Shown here one piece after another: positions 4,574 to 39,013 of a stretch of DNA of 40,303 nucleotides. The position numbers were made by a program, and so were the translations under genes. Under the pieces are notes generated by a model. It did no database searches and was not told the origin of the DNA. It saw nothing but the letters and a program-made list of their open reading frames with translations. The DNA is from a virus. The stretch's first letter is position 1. Every line of letters starts with the position of its first letter. The stretch is from the IMG/VR virus record IMGVR_UViG_3300046529_000252, positions 1 to 40,303 of that record; one strand, given 5' to 3'.

Positions 4574-5128
4574 TCAAACCAAGGTGCCTAGCACGTCGAA
4601 CAGTTCAGCCTTAGAGCCATTGTTCAACAGGGTGTAGTCACTGTGGTACTCGTCAAGCGCGGTCTCACTCTCATGGGTGCCGCTGTTGTCTTGCCGATCG
4701 CTGATCACACGGACAGTCAGAAAACCCTGCTCCGCAAGTGCCTTGACCTCATTGGGGTACCGCACGTCAGTCACGACAACCGGCAGCCCAAACACCCGGA
4801 AAATCTCAATCTGCTTGAGTGCCAGGTTCACCCAGTAGTCAGGGTCAATCTTGCGGACACCCTGCCCAATCCGCTGGAGAGCGCGGCGAACCTCCGGGTA
4901 AGTGCGCTTCGCGCTCTCAAACGACATGCGGCGGAGCACGTCCGACAGGTGGACCGGAAGCGGCCCGCAGCCGGACGGCTCGTACTGCACGATCGGGTCA
5001 GCCTCAACCACCATGGACTTCAGCGGATCAGCGAACGCCACCCGCGAGTAGCCGTGACCCGCAATGAGCCCCGCCGCCGCAGTGTCCTTACCAGAGCCGA
5101 TCTTGCCGATAAGCGCAATGTCTCGCAT
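4574..5128 (-). CDS. Deoxynucleoside monophosphate kinase
   Basis: A 184-residue P-loop kinase. GKIGSGKDT at residues 8-16 is the phosphate-binding loop, followed by FADPLKSMV and LPVVVTDVRYPNEVKAL, the typical DVRYPNE segment of phage dNMP kinases (T4 gp1 fold). It phosphorylates dNMPs to dNDPs in the cytoplasm and so feeds replication, alongside ThyX and dCMP deaminase encoded elsewhere in the genome. Transcribed from its own promoter-like motif (5166-5183). A 12-bp hairpin whose 3' arm contains the ribosome site (GGGG, five bases before ATG) could limit translation. A strong terminator follows. Confidence 0.9.
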   Translation of the reverse strand: MRDIALIGKIGSGKDTAAAGLIAGHGYSRVAFADPLKSMVVEADPIVQYEPSGCGPLPVHLSDVLRRMSFESAKRTYPEVRRALQRIGQGVRKIDPDYWVNLALKQIEIFRVFGLPVVVTDVRYPNEVKALAEQGFLTVRVISDRQDNSGTHESETALDEYHSDYTLLNNGSKAELFDVLGTLV

Positions 5129-5133
5129 GGTGT

Positions 5134-5172
5134 CCCCTAGTGCTCGTTCTTGCTGTTGATGAGCACTAGGGG
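5134..5172 (-). promoter_or_regulatory. Hairpin sequestering the dNMP kinase ribosome site
   Basis: Perfect 12-bp repeat CCCCTAGTGCTC (5134-5145) / GAGCACTAGGGG (5161-5172). On the minus-strand RNA the downstream arm ends in AGGGG five bases before the ATG, so folding would hide the ribosome site. The upstream arm includes the CTAG end of the promoter-like motif. Confidence 0.65.
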
Positions 5173-5183
5173 CGTCGTATGCC
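5166..5183 (-). promoter_or_regulatory. Phage promoter-like motif (PM3)
   Basis: Minus-strand GGCATACGACGCCCCTAG, 37 bp upstream of the dNMP kinase start. Confidence 0.6.
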
Positions 5184-5188
5184 TGCGC

Positions 5189-5554
5189 CTACTGAATCGG
5201 CTGAGCAACCTGCGGCGGGTAGACCACGCTGGCCACCGGAGCCACCGGGGCGGGAACCTCAACTACCGGAGCAGGGGCCGGAGTTGGCTCCACATACTCA
5301 GCTATCCGAGAGAACGGCACGCCAAGCTCATCCGCGATGCTGACAACCTTCTCCGCATCCTTCTCAAGCGCGGGGTGCGTGGTCAGGTAGCCGCTGGCAA
5401 AGGTGACACCCGCAGTGACCAGCGCCAGCCACAGACCCTTCACGTCAGCGGGGGTGCCGTTGGGGAAGACGTACGGGCCGACGATGCCACCTACGACAGT
5501 CGCAGCAGATGCGGCAACGGTGGAGGCAGTGACCTTAGGAGAGAAGCCGCTCAT
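5189..5554 (-). CDS. Holin
   Basis: A 121-residue protein with two hydrophobic spans (about residues 8-30 and 41-58) joined by a short loop, then a soluble tail that is Pro/Ala/Val rich. Topology, size and position behind the endolysin fit two-span actinophage holins, which open the cytoplasmic membrane so that the endolysin reaches the peptidoglycan. Its ATG overlaps the stop of the 56-aa gene before it (ATGA). The C-terminal EVPAPVAPVA tail is unusually long and low in complexity, and may lie in the cytoplasm or wall. Confidence 0.82.
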   Translation of the reverse strand: MSGFSPKVTASTVAASAATVVGGIVGPYVFPNGTPADVKGLWLALVTAGVTFASGYLTTHPALEKDAEKVVSIADELGVPFSRIAEYVEPTPAPAPVVEVPAPVAPVASVVYPPQVAQPIQ

Positions 5555-20296: not shown

Positions 20297-21814
20297 TTAT
20301 AGATCAGACCAGTTGAAGAACTGCGCGATTGGCTGGACTTCAGGCTCAATACACGCGCGCTCAAGTGCCATGACAGCGGACACAGCGAGGTCGATCTTTC
20401 GGGGCGAACCCTTGGATTCCTTGCTCAGCCGAGAACCTCGGTTGTCCGTGCGAATCACACAGTTGGAAAGGTGCCGCGCTAGGCGCTGGTCCCCACTGTG
20501 CGAAATCGTTTTGTTCAACACCGCTTCATAGAACCGCTGAGTAGCGGGCACCATGCGAGCGGGAGACTGTGGAAACTCGACTACCGGCAAACCCTCATCC
20601 TCAAGGATTTGGTACGTCCGTGCCCAGCGGAACGGGTCACAGACAATCTCCCGAACCTGCCACTTGCGGCACGCCTTCCGGATCTCTTCCTCAACGTCAA
20701 CAATCGGGACACGCCAATCATTGGCGGAGCCTTGCGGCTTCTCCCATACAGCGGCAACGTCAATATGCGGTGGCTGCTCATCCGTCGGAGTGGAGACCAC
20801 CACGAGAGCAGTGCTGTCATTCGAGAAAGAACCATCGAACCCAAGCACCACCTCAGCACCTAGCGGGATGTCCTGCTTGACGTCTTCACACGCTTCCCAA
20901 GCACCTGCCGGTAGCCATGCGGTCGCAGTAGAAACCCACTGATTGAGACGCTTGGTACGGAATTCGTTCTCTGGAGTACGTAGAACCGCTGACGCGAAAT
21001 CCTCAGCGGACACGATGTCATCAAAACCAGGGTTTGCCGCCAGCCAAACGTCAGGGTCAGTGTGATCAGCACCCTCAGGGACTCCCCAGTACTCGTAATA
21101 GAAAGCAGGGTCGGCGACTTCACCAGACGCAACCCGCTGTCCGTACTGATGCAGCGTGTAGCAGAGGGAATCTCCGCCGGTCTGGTCAGTCTTGACGCCA
21201 GCGGTAGAGATTCCGAGCATGAGCGGTTCACGTCGCGCGCCAGTGGCGAGGGACATAACCTCCCAAAGCTCACGATTGGGCTGTGCGTGCACCTCATCGA
21301 AAATCACAAGGTGCGGCGAAAGCCCCTCTTTCGTGAATGCCTCACTCGACAGCACGCGGTACACACTGCCGGTCGGCAGAAACTCGATAGCGTCGCGGTA
21401 CGTCTTGAAGTAGCCCGTAAACCGGGGCTCCATCTCAATCATTTTCTTGGCAGTGCCAAAAACGATTCTCGCCTGCTCCTTATCAGCGGCACAGGAGTAA
21501 ACCTCACCGCCGCTGGGACCATCGAACAGCCCATACAGCGCGATACCGGCACTGAGTGCGCTCTTGCCGTTCTTACGCGGCAGCAGCACTAGCGCCTGCC
21601 GATGCTTGAGCCTGCCATCGGGACGGCGGGCAAACACCCGACCAAGCATGTCCGTCTGCCAGTCACGCATGACCAGCAATTCGCCAGCAGAACCGCCAAC
21701 GCTGTCTTTGGTCACGCGGAGAAACTGTGTGAACTCAGCGAAGCGGGCACCATCACCGCGCGCTACGTCTTCCGGGTCTACTCCGGTGAGGATGAACGGC
21801 TTTCCCACCCTCAC
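20297..21814 (-). CDS. terL: Terminase large subunit
   Basis: 505 residues from GTG 21814, which overlaps the TerS stop. Walker A LLPRKNGKS at residues 77-85, Walker B LVIFDEVHAQ (Asp172, Glu173), coupling region LMLGISTAG. Nuclease domain with VVLGFDGSFSNDST and later REIVCDPFRW, giving the expected acidic residues. It drives ATP-dependent DNA packaging and cuts the concatemer. Resembles the phiC31/HK97-like cos-type group more than headful types; an HNH gene just upstream supports cos cutting. Confidence 0.95.
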   Translation of the reverse strand: MRVGKPFILTGVDPEDVARGDGARFAEFTQFLRVTKDSVGGSAGELLVMRDWQTDMLGRVFARRPDGRLKHRQALVLLPRKNGKSALSAGIALYGLFDGPSGGEVYSCAADKEQARIVFGTAKKMIEMEPRFTGYFKTYRDAIEFLPTGSVYRVLSSEAFTKEGLSPHLVIFDEVHAQPNRELWEVMSLATGARREPLMLGISTAGVKTDQTGGDSLCYTLHQYGQRVASGEVADPAFYYEYWGVPEGADHTDPDVWLAANPGFDDIVSAEDFASAVLRTPENEFRTKRLNQWVSTATAWLPAGAWEACEDVKQDIPLGAEVVLGFDGSFSNDSTALVVVSTPTDEQPPHIDVAAVWEKPQGSANDWRVPIVDVEEEIRKACRKWQVREIVCDPFRWARTYQILEDEGLPVVEFPQSPARMVPATQRFYEAVLNKTISHSGDQRLARHLSNCVIRTDNRGSRLSKESKGSPRKIDLAVSAVMALERACIEPEVQPIAQFFNWSDL

Positions 21815-22287
21815 CCTCGCTGCTGTCGCTTGCTAAGCATTTCTTCAAAAGCGTTCTGTGCCTTCACTTCGGCGAGCCCCATCCGCGTACGGTCAGCGGG
21901 AGTGAGGCCAAGCGATGAGGCTAGGTCTACGATTTGCTTTTCAGTCGTGGCGAGCATCTGCATAACCGGATTCGCCACCATGTGCCCATCGGGACGCATG
22001 ATCAGCGGGCCATCGGCAGCAAGGTGACCGGACAGCATCGCGCGCCTGTCGTACAGCTCGCAGAGGAGCAGCAGAGTCGGCGAGTCGGACGGCGCTAGCC
22101 ACGCCTTAGCGGCCTGCGTGACGCTCTCCCATAGCGAGAGACCATCCGGGCCTAGATCGGGCTGCACAGCGGCGCTCAGGGGCGCTAGAGCGGCAACCTC
22201 ATCCCTTGCGGGAAGCTCGCGGCGTCCGGGGTTGCCAAGTCGGCGCTTCTGTTCGGCCGGTTTTGGTGGTCTTCCCACGCTTGGCAT
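21811..22287 (-). CDS. terS: Terminase small subunit (P27-like)
   Basis: 158 residues from ATG 22287, chosen because AAAGGTGG lies eight bases upstream; an in-frame ATG at 22305 lacks a ribosome site and lies within a TGCATA repeat. The basic start PSVGRPPKPAEQKRRLGNPG and the core DGLSLWESVTQAAKAWLAP, then KQIVDLASSLGLTPADRTRM, match P27-family small terminases. It recognises the packaging site, probably in the 22288-22674 non-coding region just upstream. Confidence 0.88.
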   Translation of the reverse strand: MPSVGRPPKPAEQKRRLGNPGRRELPARDEVAALAPLSAAVQPDLGPDGLSLWESVTQAAKAWLAPSDSPTLLLLCELYDRRAMLSGHLAADGPLIMRPDGHMVANPVMQMLATTEKQIVDLASSLGLTPADRTRMGLAEVKAQNAFEEMLSKRQQRG

Positions 22288-22674
22288 GGTCGCACCACCT
22301 TTCATGCATAACTATGCAAACGGCCTAGAAGTTGATCAAGGAAAATCAAGCCCCGAATTTCGCGAAAATGTCTGACTCCATGGGGCTGGGTCCAAAAGGA
22401 TCATGGTTCCGGACTTTGCACTACCCCGGGTGTATGCATAAAGGTGCTCTGACCTGCGGTTTTGTAAATGTGCACAGATATTCAACCTGACGTGGTGTCA
22501 GTGAATAATGAATAACCGCAGGTCAGAGGCTTAGCCCCTGCTTCTGATGTTGTGTTAGATAGAGTGTTGCTACTGATGGAGTGTCAGACTATGCACTACC
22601 TACCAGGCTGAGACTGCATACTTATGCACCACACTCCAGCACCACAGTCAGCACTACCAAGCCAGCACTCAGCC
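22288..22674. other. 387-bp non-coding region: candidate cos / terminase binding region
   Basis: No convincing gene on either strand. It holds TGCATAACTATGCA (22305-22318), TATGCATA (22433-22440), TGCATACTTATGCA (22615-22628), a direct repeat GACTTTGCACTACC / GACTATGCACTACC (22412-22425, 22587-22600), and a 15-bp inverted repeat CTCTGACCTGCGGTT (22447-22461) / its complement (22514-22528). The latter encloses a nested TGAC/GTCA dyad. In cos phages with an HNH protein beside the terminase, cohesive-end sites usually lie here. The exact nick position is not visible. Confidence 0.5.
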
Positions 22675-23019
22675 CTACAACACAGCCGGATAGCTGTCTT
22701 TCTTTGAGCTGTTACAGCTACGACAGAGCACACTCAGGTTCACGCGGTCCACACTCCCACCACGCGCCAGCGGTACCACATGGTCCACAGTGAGGTCTGT
22801 AGCGGCGTGTGCAGGGCGACGATGCCCAGGGCACACATTCCCATACACAGACCGATGCTCAGCCAGCACAGAGGCACGCACCGTCTGGTACTTACTCCCG
22901 TAGCCTCTCGCTGTCGCACTACCACGCGCCACATTCCAAGCGCTCTGGCACCCATCACAGCGGCTAGGGTTCGACGTAAGCCGCTGGCAATTCAAACAGG
23001 GTCGCCTAGACACACTCAC
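22675..23019 (-). CDS. HNH endonuclease beside terminase
   Basis: 114 residues from GTG 23019 (GTGA overlap; GTG 23022 also possible). N-terminal zinc ribbon CLNCQR and CDGCQSAW, then the HNH core: TDLTVDHVVPLARGGSVDR, NLSVLCRSCNSSKK. The paired cysteines and DH-N-H order are intact. HNH proteins located next to terminase genes assist specific cos cleavage and packaging in phages such as HK97; that role is inferred here. Confidence 0.9.
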   Translation of the reverse strand: MSVSRRPCLNCQRLTSNPSRCDGCQSAWNVARGSATARGYGSKYQTVRASVLAEHRSVYGNVCPGHRRPAHAATDLTVDHVVPLARGGSVDRVNLSVLCRSCNSSKKDSYPAVL

Positions 23020-23384
23020 CACCCAGCGGGCAGAGCAGGCGCGTCAGGCTGCACAGGTGGCGTCTGAGTCAGCGGCTCAGGCGTGCAATCACAGCTAGGC
23101 AGGTTGGCCACATTCGGCGCTGTACAGGTGGACTGATGGACGAAAGGAGCTAGCTCCAAAGCGATGCCATGCGCGGCACAGCCATACACCGCAATCACGG
23201 TGTTCGTAGCGTCCGGCAGATCAGCGAAGACCGGTTGCGGAAGCTCAGGATCAGCATTCAGCAGGATTTCGGCTCGCCGCTCATTCTCGGCAGCGAGTAA
23301 ACCGGCCACCTCATCGGCATGCGGTCGGCGACTCCACTGCACAGCGGCATTGCCAGGACAAGCAGTCAGGGAACAGTTAGCCAC
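23016..23384 (-). CDS. Cysteine-containing hypothetical protein (122 aa)
   Basis: GTG 23384 follows the previous stop by two bases. Four to six cysteines at SLTACPG, YGCAAHG, STCTAPN and SCDCTPE suggest metal binding. It ends in a Pro-rich tail (EPLTQTPPVQPDAPALPAGW). It is coupled to the HNH gene by a GTGA overlap, so it may work with it. No family recognised. Confidence 0.7.
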   Translation of the reverse strand: MANCSLTACPGNAAVQWSRRPHADEVAGLLAAENERRAEILLNADPELPQPVFADLPDATNTVIAVYGCAAHGIALELAPFVHQSTCTAPNVANLPSCDCTPEPLTQTPPVQPDAPALPAGW

Positions 23385-23386
23385 GC

Positions 23387-23887
23387 TCAGGCTCCAATCA
23401 GACGCGCGATATCACCCGGAGCAACATCACCGGGGATTCGATTCGGGAAAAGGTCGATTCCCGCACGCCTGTAGGCCAAATCAGCGAGCTGCGAGCAAAT
23501 GACGTGGCCCGACTCGCTGACGTAGTCCTCAAGAGCCTTGATGCCAGTGAAGCGCGCTGCGCCAATCGCCGCGTAGTCGAGAAAGCTGTACGGGGTGCCC
23601 ACAAGCAGTTTCGCGTGAGCACAGATCAGTGCACGCTGCCTGTCAGACAGGTCAAAATCGCTGTAGGCGACCCTCCGGCCATCCACAGCGCCAAAGAGGC
23701 TTGTGAGGACCGCTCCGCCAGGCTGAGCCTGAACAGCGAGATCGTCACCCACCACGACGAAAGCGTGCGTGAAGTAGCTCCCGGAGCCCACTAGACGCTG
23801 ACCCAGCGAAATGCCTGCGCCGACAGCGCCAGTGATGCGAACTAGCCCGATGTCGCCCGGAAGCGGGTTGGCAGTCTTGAAACTCAC
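23387..23887 (-). CDS. Permuted NlpC/P60-like (papain-fold) hydrolase
   Basis: 166 residues from GTG 23887 with GGAGG seven bases upstream. PLPGDIGLVRITG opens the domain; FTHAFVVVGDD supplies a His (His41), and GHVICSQLADLAYRRAGIDL supplies the Cys (Cys131), the order of circularly permuted NlpC/P60 proteins. Members cleave peptide, amide or thioester bonds, often in cell walls. It is first in the gene line leading to terminase rather than beside the lysis genes, so it may be a virion or early cell-wall enzyme. There is no signal peptide. Confidence 0.72.
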   Translation of the reverse strand: MSFKTANPLPGDIGLVRITGAVGAGISLGQRLVGSGSYFTHAFVVVGDDLAVQAQPGGAVLTSLFGAVDGRRVAYSDFDLSDRQRALICAHAKLLVGTPYSFLDYAAIGAARFTGIKALEDYVSESGHVICSQLADLAYRRAGIDLFPNRIPGDVAPGDIARLIGA

Positions 23888-23914
23888 GCGCAACCCTCCG
23901 GGAACGCAAAGAAA

Positions 23915-23938
23915 GCCCCGTGGCGGTTGCCATGGGGC
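23915..23938 (-). terminator. Terminator after the tRNA array
   Basis: GCCCC/GGGGC with inner GGC/GCC, followed on the minus strand by TTTCTTTG. It ends the tRNA transcript and touches the adjacent palindrome. Confidence 0.72.
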
Positions 23939-23959
23939 ACATACGGACGTGCGTAGGTG
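23938..23959. promoter_or_regulatory. Conserved palindrome 8
   Basis: CACATACGGACGTGCGTAGG plus TG, between the tRNA array and the NlpC/P60-like gene. Confidence 0.72.
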
Positions 23960-24083
23960 CACGGAAGTTAGCTGCGCTACTCGCCGGAACTGCCCCGGAA
24001 GCCCGCAGGGTCTTACGACGCCGTAGCGCTTTCAGCCATCGTGCCCTAGGTGGTATCTCTCCACAGTTGCACGGTCAAGCAAG

Positions 24084-24156
24084 TAGCCACTCCCGGATTC
24101 GAACCGGGAACCTTGCGCTCCTAAGGCGCACGCCTCTGCCGTTGGGCTAAGCGGCC
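24084..24156 (-). tRNA. tRNA with UAG anticodon (Leu CUA), short variable loop
   Basis: A 73-nt cloverleaf: acceptor GGCCGCT/AGTGGCT (two G-U pairs), anticodon stem TGCGC/GCGCA with loop CTTAGGA (anticodon TAG), variable loop AGGTT, T arm CCCGG-TTCGAAT-CCGGG. No encoded CCA. Leucine tRNAs normally have a long variable arm; this one does not, so its charging identity is uncertain. Confidence 0.75.
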
Positions 24157-24158
24157 TT

Positions 24159-24228
24159 GTCTAGGAAACCGGGAACACCGGTTAGGGAGTGCATGCCTCT
24201 CGTAGCCCCGTAAAGGGTCGTCCTAGAC
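24159..24228 (-). ncRNA. 70-nt structured spacer closed by an 8-bp stem (cloverleaf-like)
   Basis: GTCTAGGA / TCCTAGAC close the segment exactly between the Leu and Tyr tRNAs. Inside are CCC/GGG, GAG/CTC and AACCG/CGGTT pairings in tRNA-like order, but it lacks the TTCRA T-loop. It may be a decayed tRNA or a processing structure. Confidence 0.4.
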
Positions 24229-24232
24229 TCCG

Positions 24233-24310
24233 TGCGCTGCCCCGGAATCGAACCGGTCTAGCCCGCAGGCAGGGGCTTTACAGGCCCCTTGGTGTCCCAG
24301 CACTCAACGC
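24233..24310 (-). tRNA. tRNA-Tyr (GUA)
   Basis: Anticodon arm GGGGC-CTGTAAA-GCCCC (anticodon GTA), long variable arm GCC-TGCG-GGC as in bacterial tRNA-Tyr, T arm CCGG-TTCGATT-CCGG. Acceptor GCGTTGA/GCAGCGC pairs at six of seven positions. The D arm is short and irregular. No CCA. Confidence 0.7.
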
Positions 24311-24356
24311 GAGTCCGCCATGATTCTGGCCAGCGGCAGGGCCATCTACGTGAATG

Positions 24357-24429
24357 CTGGCATGGCAGGATTCGAACCTGCGACACAGGGATTAACAATC
24401 CCCTGCTCTACCGACTGAGCTACATGCCA
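24357..24429 (-). tRNA. tRNA-Asn (GUU)
   Basis: A fully canonical 73-nt cloverleaf: acceptor TGGCATG/CATGCCA, D arm GCTC/GAGC, anticodon loop TTGTTAA (anticodon GTT), T arm GCAGG-TTCGAAT-CCTGC, discriminator G, no CCA. Confidence 0.93.
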
Positions 24430-24476
24430 AAGCGTCAGGGTTTCGCTGCGGAGGATTGCACTACCTGACTCCCGCT

Positions 24477-24563
24477 CGTGCGAGGCAACCGGAATCGAAC
24501 CGATCACGCGGGCCGGTGTTCACTACAGGAGCGACCCCGTAGCTACTAGCTTCCCTCCCACCT
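24477..24563 (-). tRNA. Degenerate tRNA-like sequence
   Basis: Only the T arm (ATCGG-TTCGATT-CCGGT) and a tRNA-like 3' acceptor (TGCCTCG) are clear. A partly pairing 5' arm CAAGGTG would give about 86 nt, but no acceptable anticodon arm with a U33 was found. It may be a decayed class II tRNA. Confidence 0.35.
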
Positions 24564-24616
24564 TGGGCATACCTCTTACGACTATCGTTGGGTTCGCGGC
24601 CCTATTGTTGTCGTCG

Positions 24617-24687
24617 CTGGTGCGGCAGGATTCGAACCTGCGTACCCGGTTTTGCCACCGGTGCTCTGCCCATTGAGCCACGCGCCA
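24617..24687 (-). tRNA. tRNA-Cys-like (GCA) with 6-nt anticodon loop
   Basis: Acceptor TGGCGCG/CGCACCA (one mismatch), D arm GCTC/GAGC, T arm GCAGG-TTCGAAT-CCTGC and a 4-nt variable loop GTAC as in actinobacterial tRNA-Cys. The anticodon stem CCGGT/ACCGG encloses only GGCAAA, one base short and without U33. An Ala GGC reading cannot be excluded. Confidence 0.55.
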
Positions 24688-24741
24688 TTGTTGCTAGGGT
24701 TTTGACGTGCACTGACAGAACAGTACCTAGCTCACACATCG

Positions 24742-24809
24742 GGCGTCCGCCTGGACTCGAACCAGGATTACCCGACAAACGGGGCGGCTTACCATTAGCC
24801 GAAAGACGC
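24742..24809 (-). tRNA. tRNA-Gln-like (UUG) with shortened anticodon arm
   Basis: Acceptor GCGTCTT/CGGACGC, D arm GGCT-AATGGTA-AGCC and T arm CCTGG-TTCGAGT-CCAGG are good. The anticodon arm is only CCCG-TTTGT-CGGG, about three bases shorter than normal; it retains TTTG, compatible with a former UUG anticodon. Confidence 0.5.
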
Positions 24810-24964: not shown

Positions 24965-25056
24965 GGGACGCTGGGACGAAAATACTGAAATCTCGGTATC
25001 CCTTAAGAAACTCTATAGGGAATGCTAGATTTACTGATTTTCGTCCCACCGTCCCA
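24965..25056 (-). repeat. 92-bp inverted-arm element, copy B
   Basis: Gapless 75% match to 3099-3190. Right arm CGTCCCACCGTCCCA is identical to copy A; left arm GGGACGCTGGGACG differs at one base. The centre keeps CCTTAAG and CTCTATAGGGA. Confidence 0.85.
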
Positions 25057-25141
25057 CTAGTCAATAAAAGTGCTGGTCAGAGGCTTGCGCCTACCTCGCT
25101 GACGCGGGACGCAGGCCACCAACCGGGACGCACTTCCTGTG

Positions 25142-25173: not shown

Positions 25174-26799
25174 CTAGCTGTTGTACACAGGCTCATCGGC
25201 CAGTGCAAGCGCCGCTTCGCTGTGGAAGGGATCGCGCACTGAGAAGTGCACACGCCCTTCATTCAGCTTGCGCCACCCACCCCGCCCGCCAGCATCCACG
25301 CTGAGGTGCGCACCTGCGTTCTGCAAGAGCTGTCGCCTGCCTGCCACGTCGGTCCGCTCCCACAGCGTGTAGTACGTCGTTCCGGACCGGATCTCTTCGG
25401 TACGCGGTTCTACCTTCTCCCTGCTCTCCAGCTCAGCGAGACGCGCGTCCAGGGCATCCGCGTGCCTCTGCCATGCTGCCTTGGCTGCGCTCGACTTCTG
25501 GCGTCCCTGCTGCGCCTGGTGCTCCTCAAACTCAGCGAGGGTCGCGTCAATCTCCGGTTGCGGGTCGTATCCGGGAATGGCGCGCGTGTGCGTGACTTCA
25601 AGCGCTCCCAGGATTCGCAGAAACTCGCGCTCGGCGTACTCATCTGCCCAGTCTCGTTTAACGCCTGCTGGTGCCGTGCATGTGCGGCCCGTTGTGTTCG
25701 CGCTGCACTTGTAGGTTTCCGTCCTGGTCGTGCTCTTGCTGTTAACGGACGGGCGGTGCAGGTACATTCGCCCCCCGCAGGTTCCGCAGTGAATCACCCG
25801 CAGCAGCAGTGCCACGGTGTCCACGCGGTCCGCTGGCTTGTCCACTGACCGGTCAGTCAGCATGGCACCGATGGCATCGAATTCTTCGCGCGTGAGGATT
25901 GGCTCAGCGGTAGCCATGATGGGTGCTCCATCGCTGTCCCGCACGGGCCGGTTATCCGTGACCTTCCAACCCAACAGGCGCTCAGACGTCAGCAGTTCCT
26001 TTGTGGCTCCGTGCCGCCAGGAAAAGCGCTCGCTCGTGACGGTCTCACCAGGTTGACCGCCAGTCTTCCCACCTGTCTTGCGTCCTTGCTTGATACTCCA
26101 GTGATCGCGAGATGACGGAATCCCATCGTCGTTCAATCCTCGTGCGATTGCCGCGAGGCTCTTACCGGGAATGCCATTGCTCGGATCGCCCATGAGTTCC
26201 CGAATGATGCGCTCCAGGACTGCAACGGCGTCAGGGTCCTGCACCAGCGTCCAGCCACCACCTTCCAGCGGGGCAGGCATGTAGCCGTACGGCGGACGTG
26301 AACCGCGCCACCGTAGCGGCATGACGCGCATTGCAGCCTGAGCGCTGGTGACGCGTTCCCGAATGGCCTGCGCTTCCATCTGCGCCGCGAACGCAAACAG
26401 GGTGACCATGAGCTGAGCCATGGGGTCCAGCGGGTTGCGGAAGTCGAGCTTGAGAAGCCCGCCCGGACCCTCCGCGAACACGATCATTTTCCGGTGGTCG
26501 CGTCCCCACTTTGCTAGCTCGTGCATGTCGTCCATGGACCTAACGGCCCGGTCGAAACGCCAGAAAACCAGCGCGTCAAACTCAGTGGGACGGCGAAGCC
26601 ACTTGCCCAACTCGGGGCGCTCAAACGGGGTTGTCTTGGATGCGCTCACACCCAGGTCTACGGCTTCACGGTCGCCCAGGTCGATCCCCTGAGAAGCCGC
26701 AGCGTTCCTGTTGGCTTCCCGCTGGCGTTCGGGGCTAGTGGTCTCGTCAGTCAGTACGGAGAGGCGGAGGCAGGAGACGCCCCGGAGGTTGGTGGACAT
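25174..26799 (-). CDS. int: Large serine integrase
   Basis: 541 residues from ATG 26799; a longer reading from 26859 would run through a promoter-like motif. The catalytic domain begins CLRLSVLTDETTSPERQREA with nucleophile Ser14, then VFWRFDRAVRSMDDMHEL. The recombinase domain (about 160-330) has GLNDDGIPSSRDHWSIKQGR. A zinc ribbon follows with Cys338, Cys341, Cys365 and Cys374 (HCGTCGGRM, YKCSANTTGRTC), then a coiled coil (about 405-460). Integrates phage DNA at attB without host factors. Shorter than phiC31 integrase (about 600 residues) but complete in domains. Its partner RDF is encoded at 497/39981. Confidence 0.95.
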   Translation of the reverse strand: MSTNLRGVSCLRLSVLTDETTSPERQREANRNAAASQGIDLGDREAVDLGVSASKTTPFERPELGKWLRRPTEFDALVFWRFDRAVRSMDDMHELAKWGRDHRKMIVFAEGPGGLLKLDFRNPLDPMAQLMVTLFAFAAQMEAQAIRERVTSAQAAMRVMPLRWRGSRPPYGYMPAPLEGGGWTLVQDPDAVAVLERIIRELMGDPSNGIPGKSLAAIARGLNDDGIPSSRDHWSIKQGRKTGGKTGGQPGETVTSERFSWRHGATKELLTSERLLGWKVTDNRPVRDSDGAPIMATAEPILTREEFDAIGAMLTDRSVDKPADRVDTVALLLRVIHCGTCGGRMYLHRPSVNSKSTTRTETYKCSANTTGRTCTAPAGVKRDWADEYAEREFLRILGALEVTHTRAIPGYDPQPEIDATLAEFEEHQAQQGRQKSSAAKAAWQRHADALDARLAELESREKVEPRTEEIRSGTTYYTLWERTDVAGRRQLLQNAGAHLSVDAGGRGGWRKLNEGRVHFSVRDPFHSEAALALADEPVYNS

Positions 26800-26807
26800 G
26801 TACTGCC

Positions 26808-26825
26808 CTGAGGGTGTCGTATGCC
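26808..26825 (-). promoter_or_regulatory. Phage promoter-like motif (PM5), integrase
   Basis: Minus-strand GGCATACGACACCCTCAG, the most divergent copy (CTCAG end). It ends eight bases before the int ATG, with no clear ribosome site. Confidence 0.5.
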
Positions 26826-26836
26826 CGATGGTGCGC

Positions 26837-26947
26837 CTGACCTGCGGTGATGCCGTCATGGTGGCGGTCTCCAGAACTACTAGTTGGAGACTCTTCGGAT
26901 TGCCGAAGAGTACTGACTTGCAGTTCTAGCACATCGGCGCAGGTCAG
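26837..26947. repeat. Inverted CTGACCTGCG arms around the attP candidate
   Basis: CTGACCTGCG at 26837-26846 and CGCAGGTCAG at 26938-26947 flank the attP-like dyad. The same arms flank a dyad in the putative cos region (22449-22458, 22517-22526). Confidence 0.6.
26873..26927. other. Candidate attP site
   Basis: A 55-bp imperfect dyad directly upstream of int: outer AGAACT/AGTTCT and inner ACTCTTCGG (26890-26898) / CCGAAGAGT (26903-26911) around ATTG. Size, symmetry and position match serine-integrase attP sites, which are about 50 bp and often sit beside int. The crossover dinucleotide is not identifiable; a hairpin terminator or int operator is the alternative. Confidence 0.5.
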
Positions 26948-38420: not shown

Positions 38421-38438
38421 CTAGATGTCTCGTATGCC
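38421..38438 (-). promoter_or_regulatory. Phage promoter-like motif (PM8)
   Basis: Minus-strand GGCATACGAGACATCTAG, 21 bp upstream of the primase-helicase start and overlapping the end of the HNH gene. Confidence 0.62.
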
Positions 38439-38843
38439 TGGCCACGACAGCACCCACTCAGCAAGGGTCTTCGCACCCTTGGACAGATTGCAGGGAGCAC
38501 ACGCGGGCACGATGTTGCTCGCCACGTCCTCACCACCCTTGGACAGCGGATGCACGTGGTCTAGGTGCTCCGCTAGCCGATCGCAGTAGCAACACCGGTA
38601 TTTCCAGCGGTACAGGATCTCCGTCCGGCTGTACTCTTCCGTCCGCACGCCGTACTTGGCCGCGCGCTTCCCCATCGTCAGCGTGTTCCGCTTGTCCGGC
38701 GGAAGCTTCCGGTAGTAGTCCTTGACGTGCTGCTTACGGCGCTTCTCGCGACACGTCCGGCAGGCACGGGAAGGCTTGCGCGCCTTGCCCGCCAGAAAGT
38801 CATCCTCAGGCTTCGCACGTCTGCACAGCTCGCACGTCTTCAC
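38421..38843 (-). CDS. HNH endonuclease (second copy type)
   Basis: 140 residues from GTG 38843 (GTGA overlap with the upstream stop). N-terminal zinc ribbon CELCRRAKPEDDFLAGK and CRTCREKRRKQ, then the HNH core CCYCDRLAEHLDHVHPLSKG, with NIVPACAPCNLSKGAKTLAE. Unlike the terminase-adjacent HNH it sits in the early region ahead of the replication genes, and resembles free-standing homing-type endonucleases. Its stop lies in the promoter-like motif that serves the next gene. Confidence 0.88.
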   Translation of the reverse strand: MKTCELCRRAKPEDDFLAGKARKPSRACRTCREKRRKQHVKDYYRKLPPDKRNTLTMGKRAAKYGVRTEEYSRTEILYRWKYRCCYCDRLAEHLDHVHPLSKGGEDVASNIVPACAPCNLSKGAKTLAEWVLSWPGIRDI

Positions 38844-39013
38844 CCGCGCACCACCAGCGCGCCACGCACGAACGCAACCCCGATGGCATCCCAACACCTA
38901 GGCCAGTCACGGCGCGACGTCGCGTCCCTGTGAATGACGATGATGTCCCCAACTCCGCACGCCCGTAGGTCCCCTATCGCTGGCGAGCGGTCTTCCGTAA
39001 CGACTCTGATCAT
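38840..39013 (-). CDS. Small hypothetical protein (57 aa)
   Basis: ATG 39013 with GAGGGAAG upstream. Product MIRVVTEDRSPAIGDLRACG, then VGDIIVIHRDATSRRDWPRC and a Val/Gly-rich end (AFVRGALVVRG). Likely a small beta protein. First gene after palindrome 14, coupled to the HNH gene. Confidence 0.7.
   Translation of the reverse strand: MIRVVTEDRSPAIGDLRACGVGDIIVIHRDATSRRDWPRCWDAIGVAFVRGALVVRG

Follow-up and report, generated by a model that had tools for sequence, protein, structure and literature searches.

Changes in the anticodon loops of phage-encoded tRNAs have been proposed to permit escape from host tRNases (PMC10264068; van den Berg et al., 2023). The tRNA arrays considered here resemble those of that account in belonging to actinobacterial phages, in the focus of change on the anticodon loop and in the nuclease resistance that may be proposed for them. 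However, as far as the accessible text goes, the tRNAs described there have a standard loop and are proposed to continue decoding, and it mentions no shortened loops, whereas the present ones have loops of 5–6 nt, mostly without U33, or carry a hairpin. One enzyme of relevance is RloC, a disrupter of anticodon loops that has tRNA-Glu as its favored target and cleaves Gln, Ala and Gly species as well (PMC2610378). Phage-encoded tRNAs have also been set against host defence in the case of those that evade retrons and other systems (PMC11555353), the abstract of that source mentioning no shortened anticodon arm. tRNAs with a 4-bp anticodon stem, which provide an alternative reading of the 15-nt arms described below, are known from bacterial genomes, where they are linked to altered decoding (PMC13092985), but the arm reported here is two bases shorter and its loop is closed by an invariant C:G pair.

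Temperate actinophages with tRNA-dependent lysogeny (PMC10865867) likewise have tRNA genes near their integration functions; that system combines a tyrosine integrase with an attB site in a host tRNA gene, whereas the phage studied here encodes a serine integrase. RNA-repair phages with a T4-like Pnk/Rnl1 system encode an RNA ligase, and the preliminary description had ascribed one to this phage too, but no RNA ligase family match was obtained when ORFs, including part of the short ones, were compared with Pfam or PHROGs. The stable non-tRNA RNAs of the T4 tRNA cluster, species 1 and 2 (rnaC and rnaD), invite comparison, by annotation alone, with an element of about 110 nt described in the last section. 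A search of the open-access literature returned nothing on point about phage tRNAs that act as decoys or have an anticodon loop of 5 or 6 nt.

The tRNA array and its genomic setting

The window, i.e. the whole stretch of 40,303 bases that was analysed, is the IMG/VR virus fragment IMGVR_UViG_3300046529_000252. The similarity of its TerL, integrase and primase to those of Streptomyces phages marks it as a predicted phiC31/Vashvirus-like temperate phage. Its tRNA array lies between the serine integrase and terminase genes:

20297..21814, minus strand: terminase large subunit, which served as the query for relatives
21811..22305, minus strand: terminase small subunit
23387..23962, minus strand: ORF of phrog_1128, directly downstream of the array, with homologs after the array in L005, L006, L015 and L034
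24084-24809, minus strand: tRNA array
25174..26859, minus strand: large serine integrase, upstream of the array, 62-64% identical to the Euratis, Vash and Lilbooboo integrases

Here and below, L-numbers are labels of loci in relatives; the virus contigs are fragments, and hosts were assigned from similarity. The Resolvase, Recombinase and Zn-ribbon domains of the integrase identify it as a large serine recombinase. In Vashvirus Euratis the interval after the integrase, which corresponds to the site of the window's array, holds a single tRNA-Thr. For the DNA of the array itself, the best matches listed among known phages cover the Asn gene only, and a search for TerL relatives in bacterial genome contigs yielded none that could be confirmed. 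The window also contains two HNH endonuclease genes (22675-23022 and 38421-38897), of which one lies in the interval that separates the terminase genes from the array. An imperfect long inverted repeat, GGGACG...CGTCCC with CTATAG at its centre, is located between the array and the integrase gene's 3' end in both the window (24966-25060) and L015 (about 5078-5225) and is a possible attP or terminator.

ARAGORN and the Rfam tRNA model (RF00005) together delineate five minus-strand tRNA genes, the Tyr gene being called by ARAGORN while Rfam agrees on the other four. Given that these four exceed the curated gathering cut-off of 29 bits, the array is not a chance assembly. Its members are:

24084-24156, minus strand: tRNA-Leu(UAG), 56 bits, complete, without a long variable arm
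24232-24310, minus strand: tRNA-Tyr(GUA), with a D arm of 3 bp and a 6-nt loop (GUG-CUGGGA-CAC)
24357-24429, minus strand: tRNA-Asn(GUU), canonical, 72.8 bits
24481-24504, minus strand: T arm and 3' acceptor strand alone (AUCGG UUCGAUU CCGGU UGCCUCG)
24617-24687, minus strand: Cys-like tRNA, 50.7 bits, anticodon arm CCGGU-GGCAAA-ACCGG
24742-24809, minus strand: Gln-like tRNA, 34.1 bits, anticodon arm C-CCCG-UUUGU-CGGG

The preliminary description had read the Asn gene as perfect, which it is, and had recognized the member reduced to a T arm; it had omitted the complete Leu gene, so that one of the six members was missed or misread, and its "nearly perfect" Tyr gene has the reduced D arm noted above and is matched in the Rfam search only by the tRNA-Sec model, and weakly (23.9 bits). 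The 24481-24504 segment is without a matching 5' half and has a counterpart at 5587-5610 of L015; it looks broken and is the sole member of the array that fits a tRNA pseudogene. A reduced Tyr D arm (about 3 bp, CUGGGA loop) also occurs in L015 (5842-5919), L010 (5783-5859), L034 (3465) and L028 (203). The D stem covaries around the same loop, GUG/CAC in the window against GCG/CGC in L015, and on this account the miniature arm, too, is maintained. The tRNA-Leu(UAG) of close relatives is, like that of the window, of class I size, while more distant ones have the long variable arm. T5-like Klebsiella phages also have a similar tRNA-Leu.

The Cys-like and Gln-like genes have one acceptor mismatch each, with the remaining pairs intact, and depart from the standard form in the anticodon arm. 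In the Cys-like gene a 5-bp stem (CCGGU/ACCGG) encloses the 6-nt loop GGCAAA, with G in place of U33. The Gln-like gene pairs at 6/7 acceptor, 4/4 D and 5/5 T positions, and its anticodon arm consists of 4 bp (CCCG/CGGG) and the 5-nt loop UUUGU; its D and T stems are 19 nt apart where the canonical Gln in L013 has 22, which bears out the earlier estimate of an arm about three bases short. Neither loop combines seven nucleotides with U33, although a U33 can be assigned in the Gln-like loop and not in the Cys-like one. Positions 32-38 are altered or missing in both genes, which amounts to mutations at the nuclease cleavage site. The concern that normal folds had been misaligned was not borne out, as unconstrained folding and the Rfam tRNA model both upheld the short loops, the former returning a cloverleaf for each gene.

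A recurrent class of tRNAs with short anticodon arms

Relatives of the window, with arrays in the corresponding position, revealed that short-arm tRNAs form a recurrent class, with a defined anatomy, covarying stems, a hypervariable loop and a bias towards certain tRNA types. TerL searches supplied 14 loci and then 80, and further ones came from D-arm and RNA-element patterns. The scan of all these loci accepted a tRNA gene if its T stem was fully paired, 6 or more of the 7 acceptor pairs were formed and a D arm was present, a rule that undercounts decayed copies. We used the D-to-T spacing, 22-23 in canonical tRNAs, as the measure of length, as canonical Asn and Pro arms can otherwise be parsed as 6 bp and a 5-nt loop. 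Among 294 distinct tRNA genes the spacing was 22-23 in 221 and 21 or less in 25; by this measure L071 and L122:6635 come out as matters of parsing and not as clearly short loops. All 40 Asn and all 42 Leu-UAG genes were canonical, and in the control phages T4 and Sugarland 23 of the 24 parsed genes were canonical and none was shortened. A narrow short-arm pattern found no match in 85,000 bacterial genomes, though it is too narrow to exclude host copies.

The largest group consists of 15 tRNAs with a Glu-type body, typified by U11:A24 and a 4-nt variable region, and a spacing of exactly 20 nt, made up of one base, 5 bp, a 5-nt loop, 5 bp and 4 nt. Standard pairs occupy 101/105 acceptor, 60/60 D, 75/75 anticodon-stem and 75/75 T positions. 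In the first 14 members, anticodon-stem pairs 1 and 3 occur as five and four pair types respectively, and none of 5000 shuffles matched the observed pairing, a figure that is not to be read as a probability since the sequences are related. The compensating changes are apparent by eye in stems such as CUCCC/GGGGG, UCUCC/GGAGA, CCUCC/GGAGG, GCCCC/GGGGC and UCACC/GGUGA. The pair that closes the loop is C:G in 14 of 14 members and also in L174, which came to light by way of the RNA-element pattern rather than the D-arm pattern and fits the same rule for closing pair and loop. When the 15-nt arms are drawn instead with an open loop of 7 nt on a stem of 4 bp, this C:G falls at 32:38 in every member, whereas C:G or G:C at 32:38 is found in just 5 of 243 canonical arms.

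The loops are of two kinds only, G-NNN-A (GGAAA, GUGAA, GCGAA, GGUGA, GAGAA) and Y-NNN-C (UGCCC, UUGCC, CUUCC, UUUCC, UUCCC). With an identity of 0.36 the loop is the least conserved part of the class, against 0.86 for its T arm, whereas in the canonical tRNA families of the arrays the loop (0.73-0.98) is among the most conserved parts. An extreme case is the pair L122 and L130, which are identical at 31/31 acceptor and T-arm positions and at only 5/15 in the anticodon arm, with both arms fully paired. About half of the class have G at position 33; several loops retain U33 and a plausible anticodon (e.g. U-UUC-C in L118 and U-GCC-C in L130). Glu genes with 17-nt arms in L056, L133, L136 and L150 also have C32:G38 and can close to a 5-nt loop, and open-loop Glu genes are present in other phages (L106, L112, L129, L175). 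Two members belong to isolated Streptomyces phages, Sycamore (MT701593, 42226-42297) and Success (OP751148, 24388-24460), and are annotated as ordinary tRNAs, tRNA-His and tRNA-Glu respectively.

Altered arms were also detected on other bodies. Apart from the window, a Cys-like 6-nt loop is seen at L048:3819-3888, where the similar arm CCGGU GGCACA GCCGG sits on a different acceptor stem; the 5-nt loop CGCAA occurs in L109, L178 and L186, and the Cys tRNAs of L054 and L055 join a normal loop (CUGCAAA) to a mini D arm. Pro-like bodies (C1:G72) with a 6-bp stem and the tetraloops AAGG, AGGG and AGUG are found in L053, L069, L074 and L179, and a related arm in L088 has the tetraloop GGUG. In L181 the D arm, variable region and T arm match the window's Gln-like gene nearly letter for letter, and the anticodon arm is replaced by CCCAGGUAGCGCUUCGGCGUGAAGGG, a hairpin with a UUCG cap and no anticodon; the cloverleaf is the minimum-energy fold of this RNA but is not strongly favored. 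Anticodon arms enlarged with extra hairpins were observed in L010 (5542-5625), L075 (3786-3865), L107 (8168-8246), L169 and L170. Close orthologs of the window's own genes are few, namely L048 for the Cys-like and L181 for the Gln-like gene.

Possible roles of the closed anticodon arms

The change noted earlier as focused on the anticodon arm is present in the window and far stronger in the relatives. Random decay of all arms, against which the preliminary description had set its proposal, is the opposite of what the relatives display, their stems being intact and covarying. That description had offered decoys, resistant tRNAs or simple pseudogenes as options, of which the last fares badly for the class even if it suits the T-arm remnant. 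Its observation is largely real and partly confirmed, and its interpretation is partly supported.

Given the above features, the window's Cys-like and Gln-like genes could belong to a recurrent class of tRNAs with selected bodies and closed arms that do not decode and are perhaps nuclease-resistant or bait, the likeliest reading, to which we assign a probability of roughly 40%. For these two genes it leans on the class, as each has one or two informative orthologs. The tRNA bodies, with acceptor, D and T arms kept intact, would remain processable and L-shaped, while the anticodon arm would be turned into a closed hairpin, with a loop of 5 or 6 nt or a longer hairpin in some relatives, that could not present the normal 7-nt decoding loop. 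A closed 5-nt loop, a G at position 33 or a UUCG cap should each preclude decoding, and the RNAs would be transcribed, processed and non-decoding. What they might do for the phage is less certain. They may help it against host enzymes of the RloC, PrrC or VapC type that attack anticodon loops, either by binding these via the tRNA body while escaping cleavage or as a source of tRNA bodies that stay uncut, and rapid change of the loop would suit an arms race. Most members of the class are Glu-bodied, and tRNA-Glu is the reported favored substrate of RloC (PMC2610378). In our view, interaction with host tRNA-attacking enzymes would fit best, and it is from the sequences that we infer a decoy or nuclease-resistant function.

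An alternative is that these tRNAs decode, with a 4-bp stem, a 7-nt loop whose C32 and G38 are complementary by accident, and an anticodon used at 34-36. This is how ARAGORN reads the short-arm genes, obtaining sensible triplets (Glu, Gly, Ala, Ser, Phe or His, depending on the phage); tRNAs with 4-bp anticodon stems exist and can function (PMC13092985), the Ala(CGC) of L157 has such a stem with an open loop, and L113 and L118 give a Glu(UUC) reading on a Glu-type body. However, an open 7-nt loop leaves the invariant C:G unexplained, the frequent G33 is at odds with decoding, and L181 has no anticodon at all. Moreover, the triplets found on the one Glu-type body across phages stand for many amino acids, so that charging identity and anticodon would disagree; we regard decoding as unlikely. 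We are similarly doubtful that the genes serve as processing punctuation or structural spacers, i.e. tRNA-shaped units for cutting by RNase P and RNase Z in which any compact hairpin would be tolerated. The acceptor and T arms are indeed the best kept, anticodon arms have been shortened, lengthened or replaced (L181, L010:5542, L169, L170), and a conserved non-tRNA element is bracketed exactly by tRNAs. Yet punctuation accounts neither for the invariant closing C:G and the two loop types nor for the bias to Glu, Cys, Gln and Pro bodies, and it does not explain why neighbouring canonical tRNAs would be insufficient.

Early decay of redundant tRNAs, in which the anticodon arm is lost first, has some basis in that decay is real in these arrays, as the T-arm remnant and the degenerate tRNA copies in L015 attest, and in the score of just 34 bits of the window's Gln-like gene. 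Nevertheless, pseudogenes are disfavored for the class and appear improbable, as its stems are intact and covarying across diverged phages, its loop is hypervariable, its 5-nt architecture is repeated in many contigs and shortening is limited to certain tRNA types. Whereas pseudogenes would lose both pairing and conservation in every arm and show no compensation, the anticodon stems pair throughout with covariation. The covarying stems, the invariant closing pair and the tRNA-type bias together make random decay fail as an explanation.

Returning to the closed, non-decoding arms, we tentatively propose more broadly that Streptomyces phages may maintain anticodon-disabled tRNAs, with complete bodies mainly of Glu, Cys, Gln or Pro type and a closed, fast-changing hairpin, which would counter host defences that attack tRNAs by acting as non-decoding competitors or as substrates that cannot be cut, and that a separate conserved RNA of about 110 nt is embedded in the same arrays. 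If true, the tRNA as decoder would be separable from the tRNA as bait or substrate, and the old question of why phages carry tRNAs would have a defence hypothesis directly testable in an isolated phage, Sycamore. The annotated anticodons of short-arm genes, such as that of the Sycamore tRNA-His, may then be meaningless.

A structured non-tRNA element in the arrays

Many of the relatives' arrays contain a conserved structured element of about 110 nt that is not a tRNA. It was sampled through an alignment of 21 sequences, a profile search (26 loci) and an exact pattern (42 contigs), and it lies on the tRNA strand in 34 of 34 distinct cases checked. Its start usually abuts the 3' end of the upstream tRNA, where such a tRNA is annotated, and the next tRNA often begins 5-9 nt past it. 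RNAalifold predicts 17 pairs, 9 of them with compensatory changes, and the structure includes a hairpin whose 7-nt loop reads CUAGUCA. The copy in Streptomyces phage Shady had no match in Rfam up to E = 10. Copies include:

L066 3341-3451, L053 3269-3378 and L020 10400-10509, among others: element
L138 2873-2983 (Streptomyces phage Shady): element, unannotated
L122 2270-2372, minus strand: element
window 24578..24614, minus strand: 5' domain of the element, directly after the Cys-like gene

The full element was not detected in the window, even without filters. The 5' domain comprises P1 (ACGAC/GUCGU), an internal loop (ACAAUAG/ACGAUA) and P2 (GGG/CCC), and the site expected for the 3' domain is occupied by the T-arm remnant at 24481-24504.
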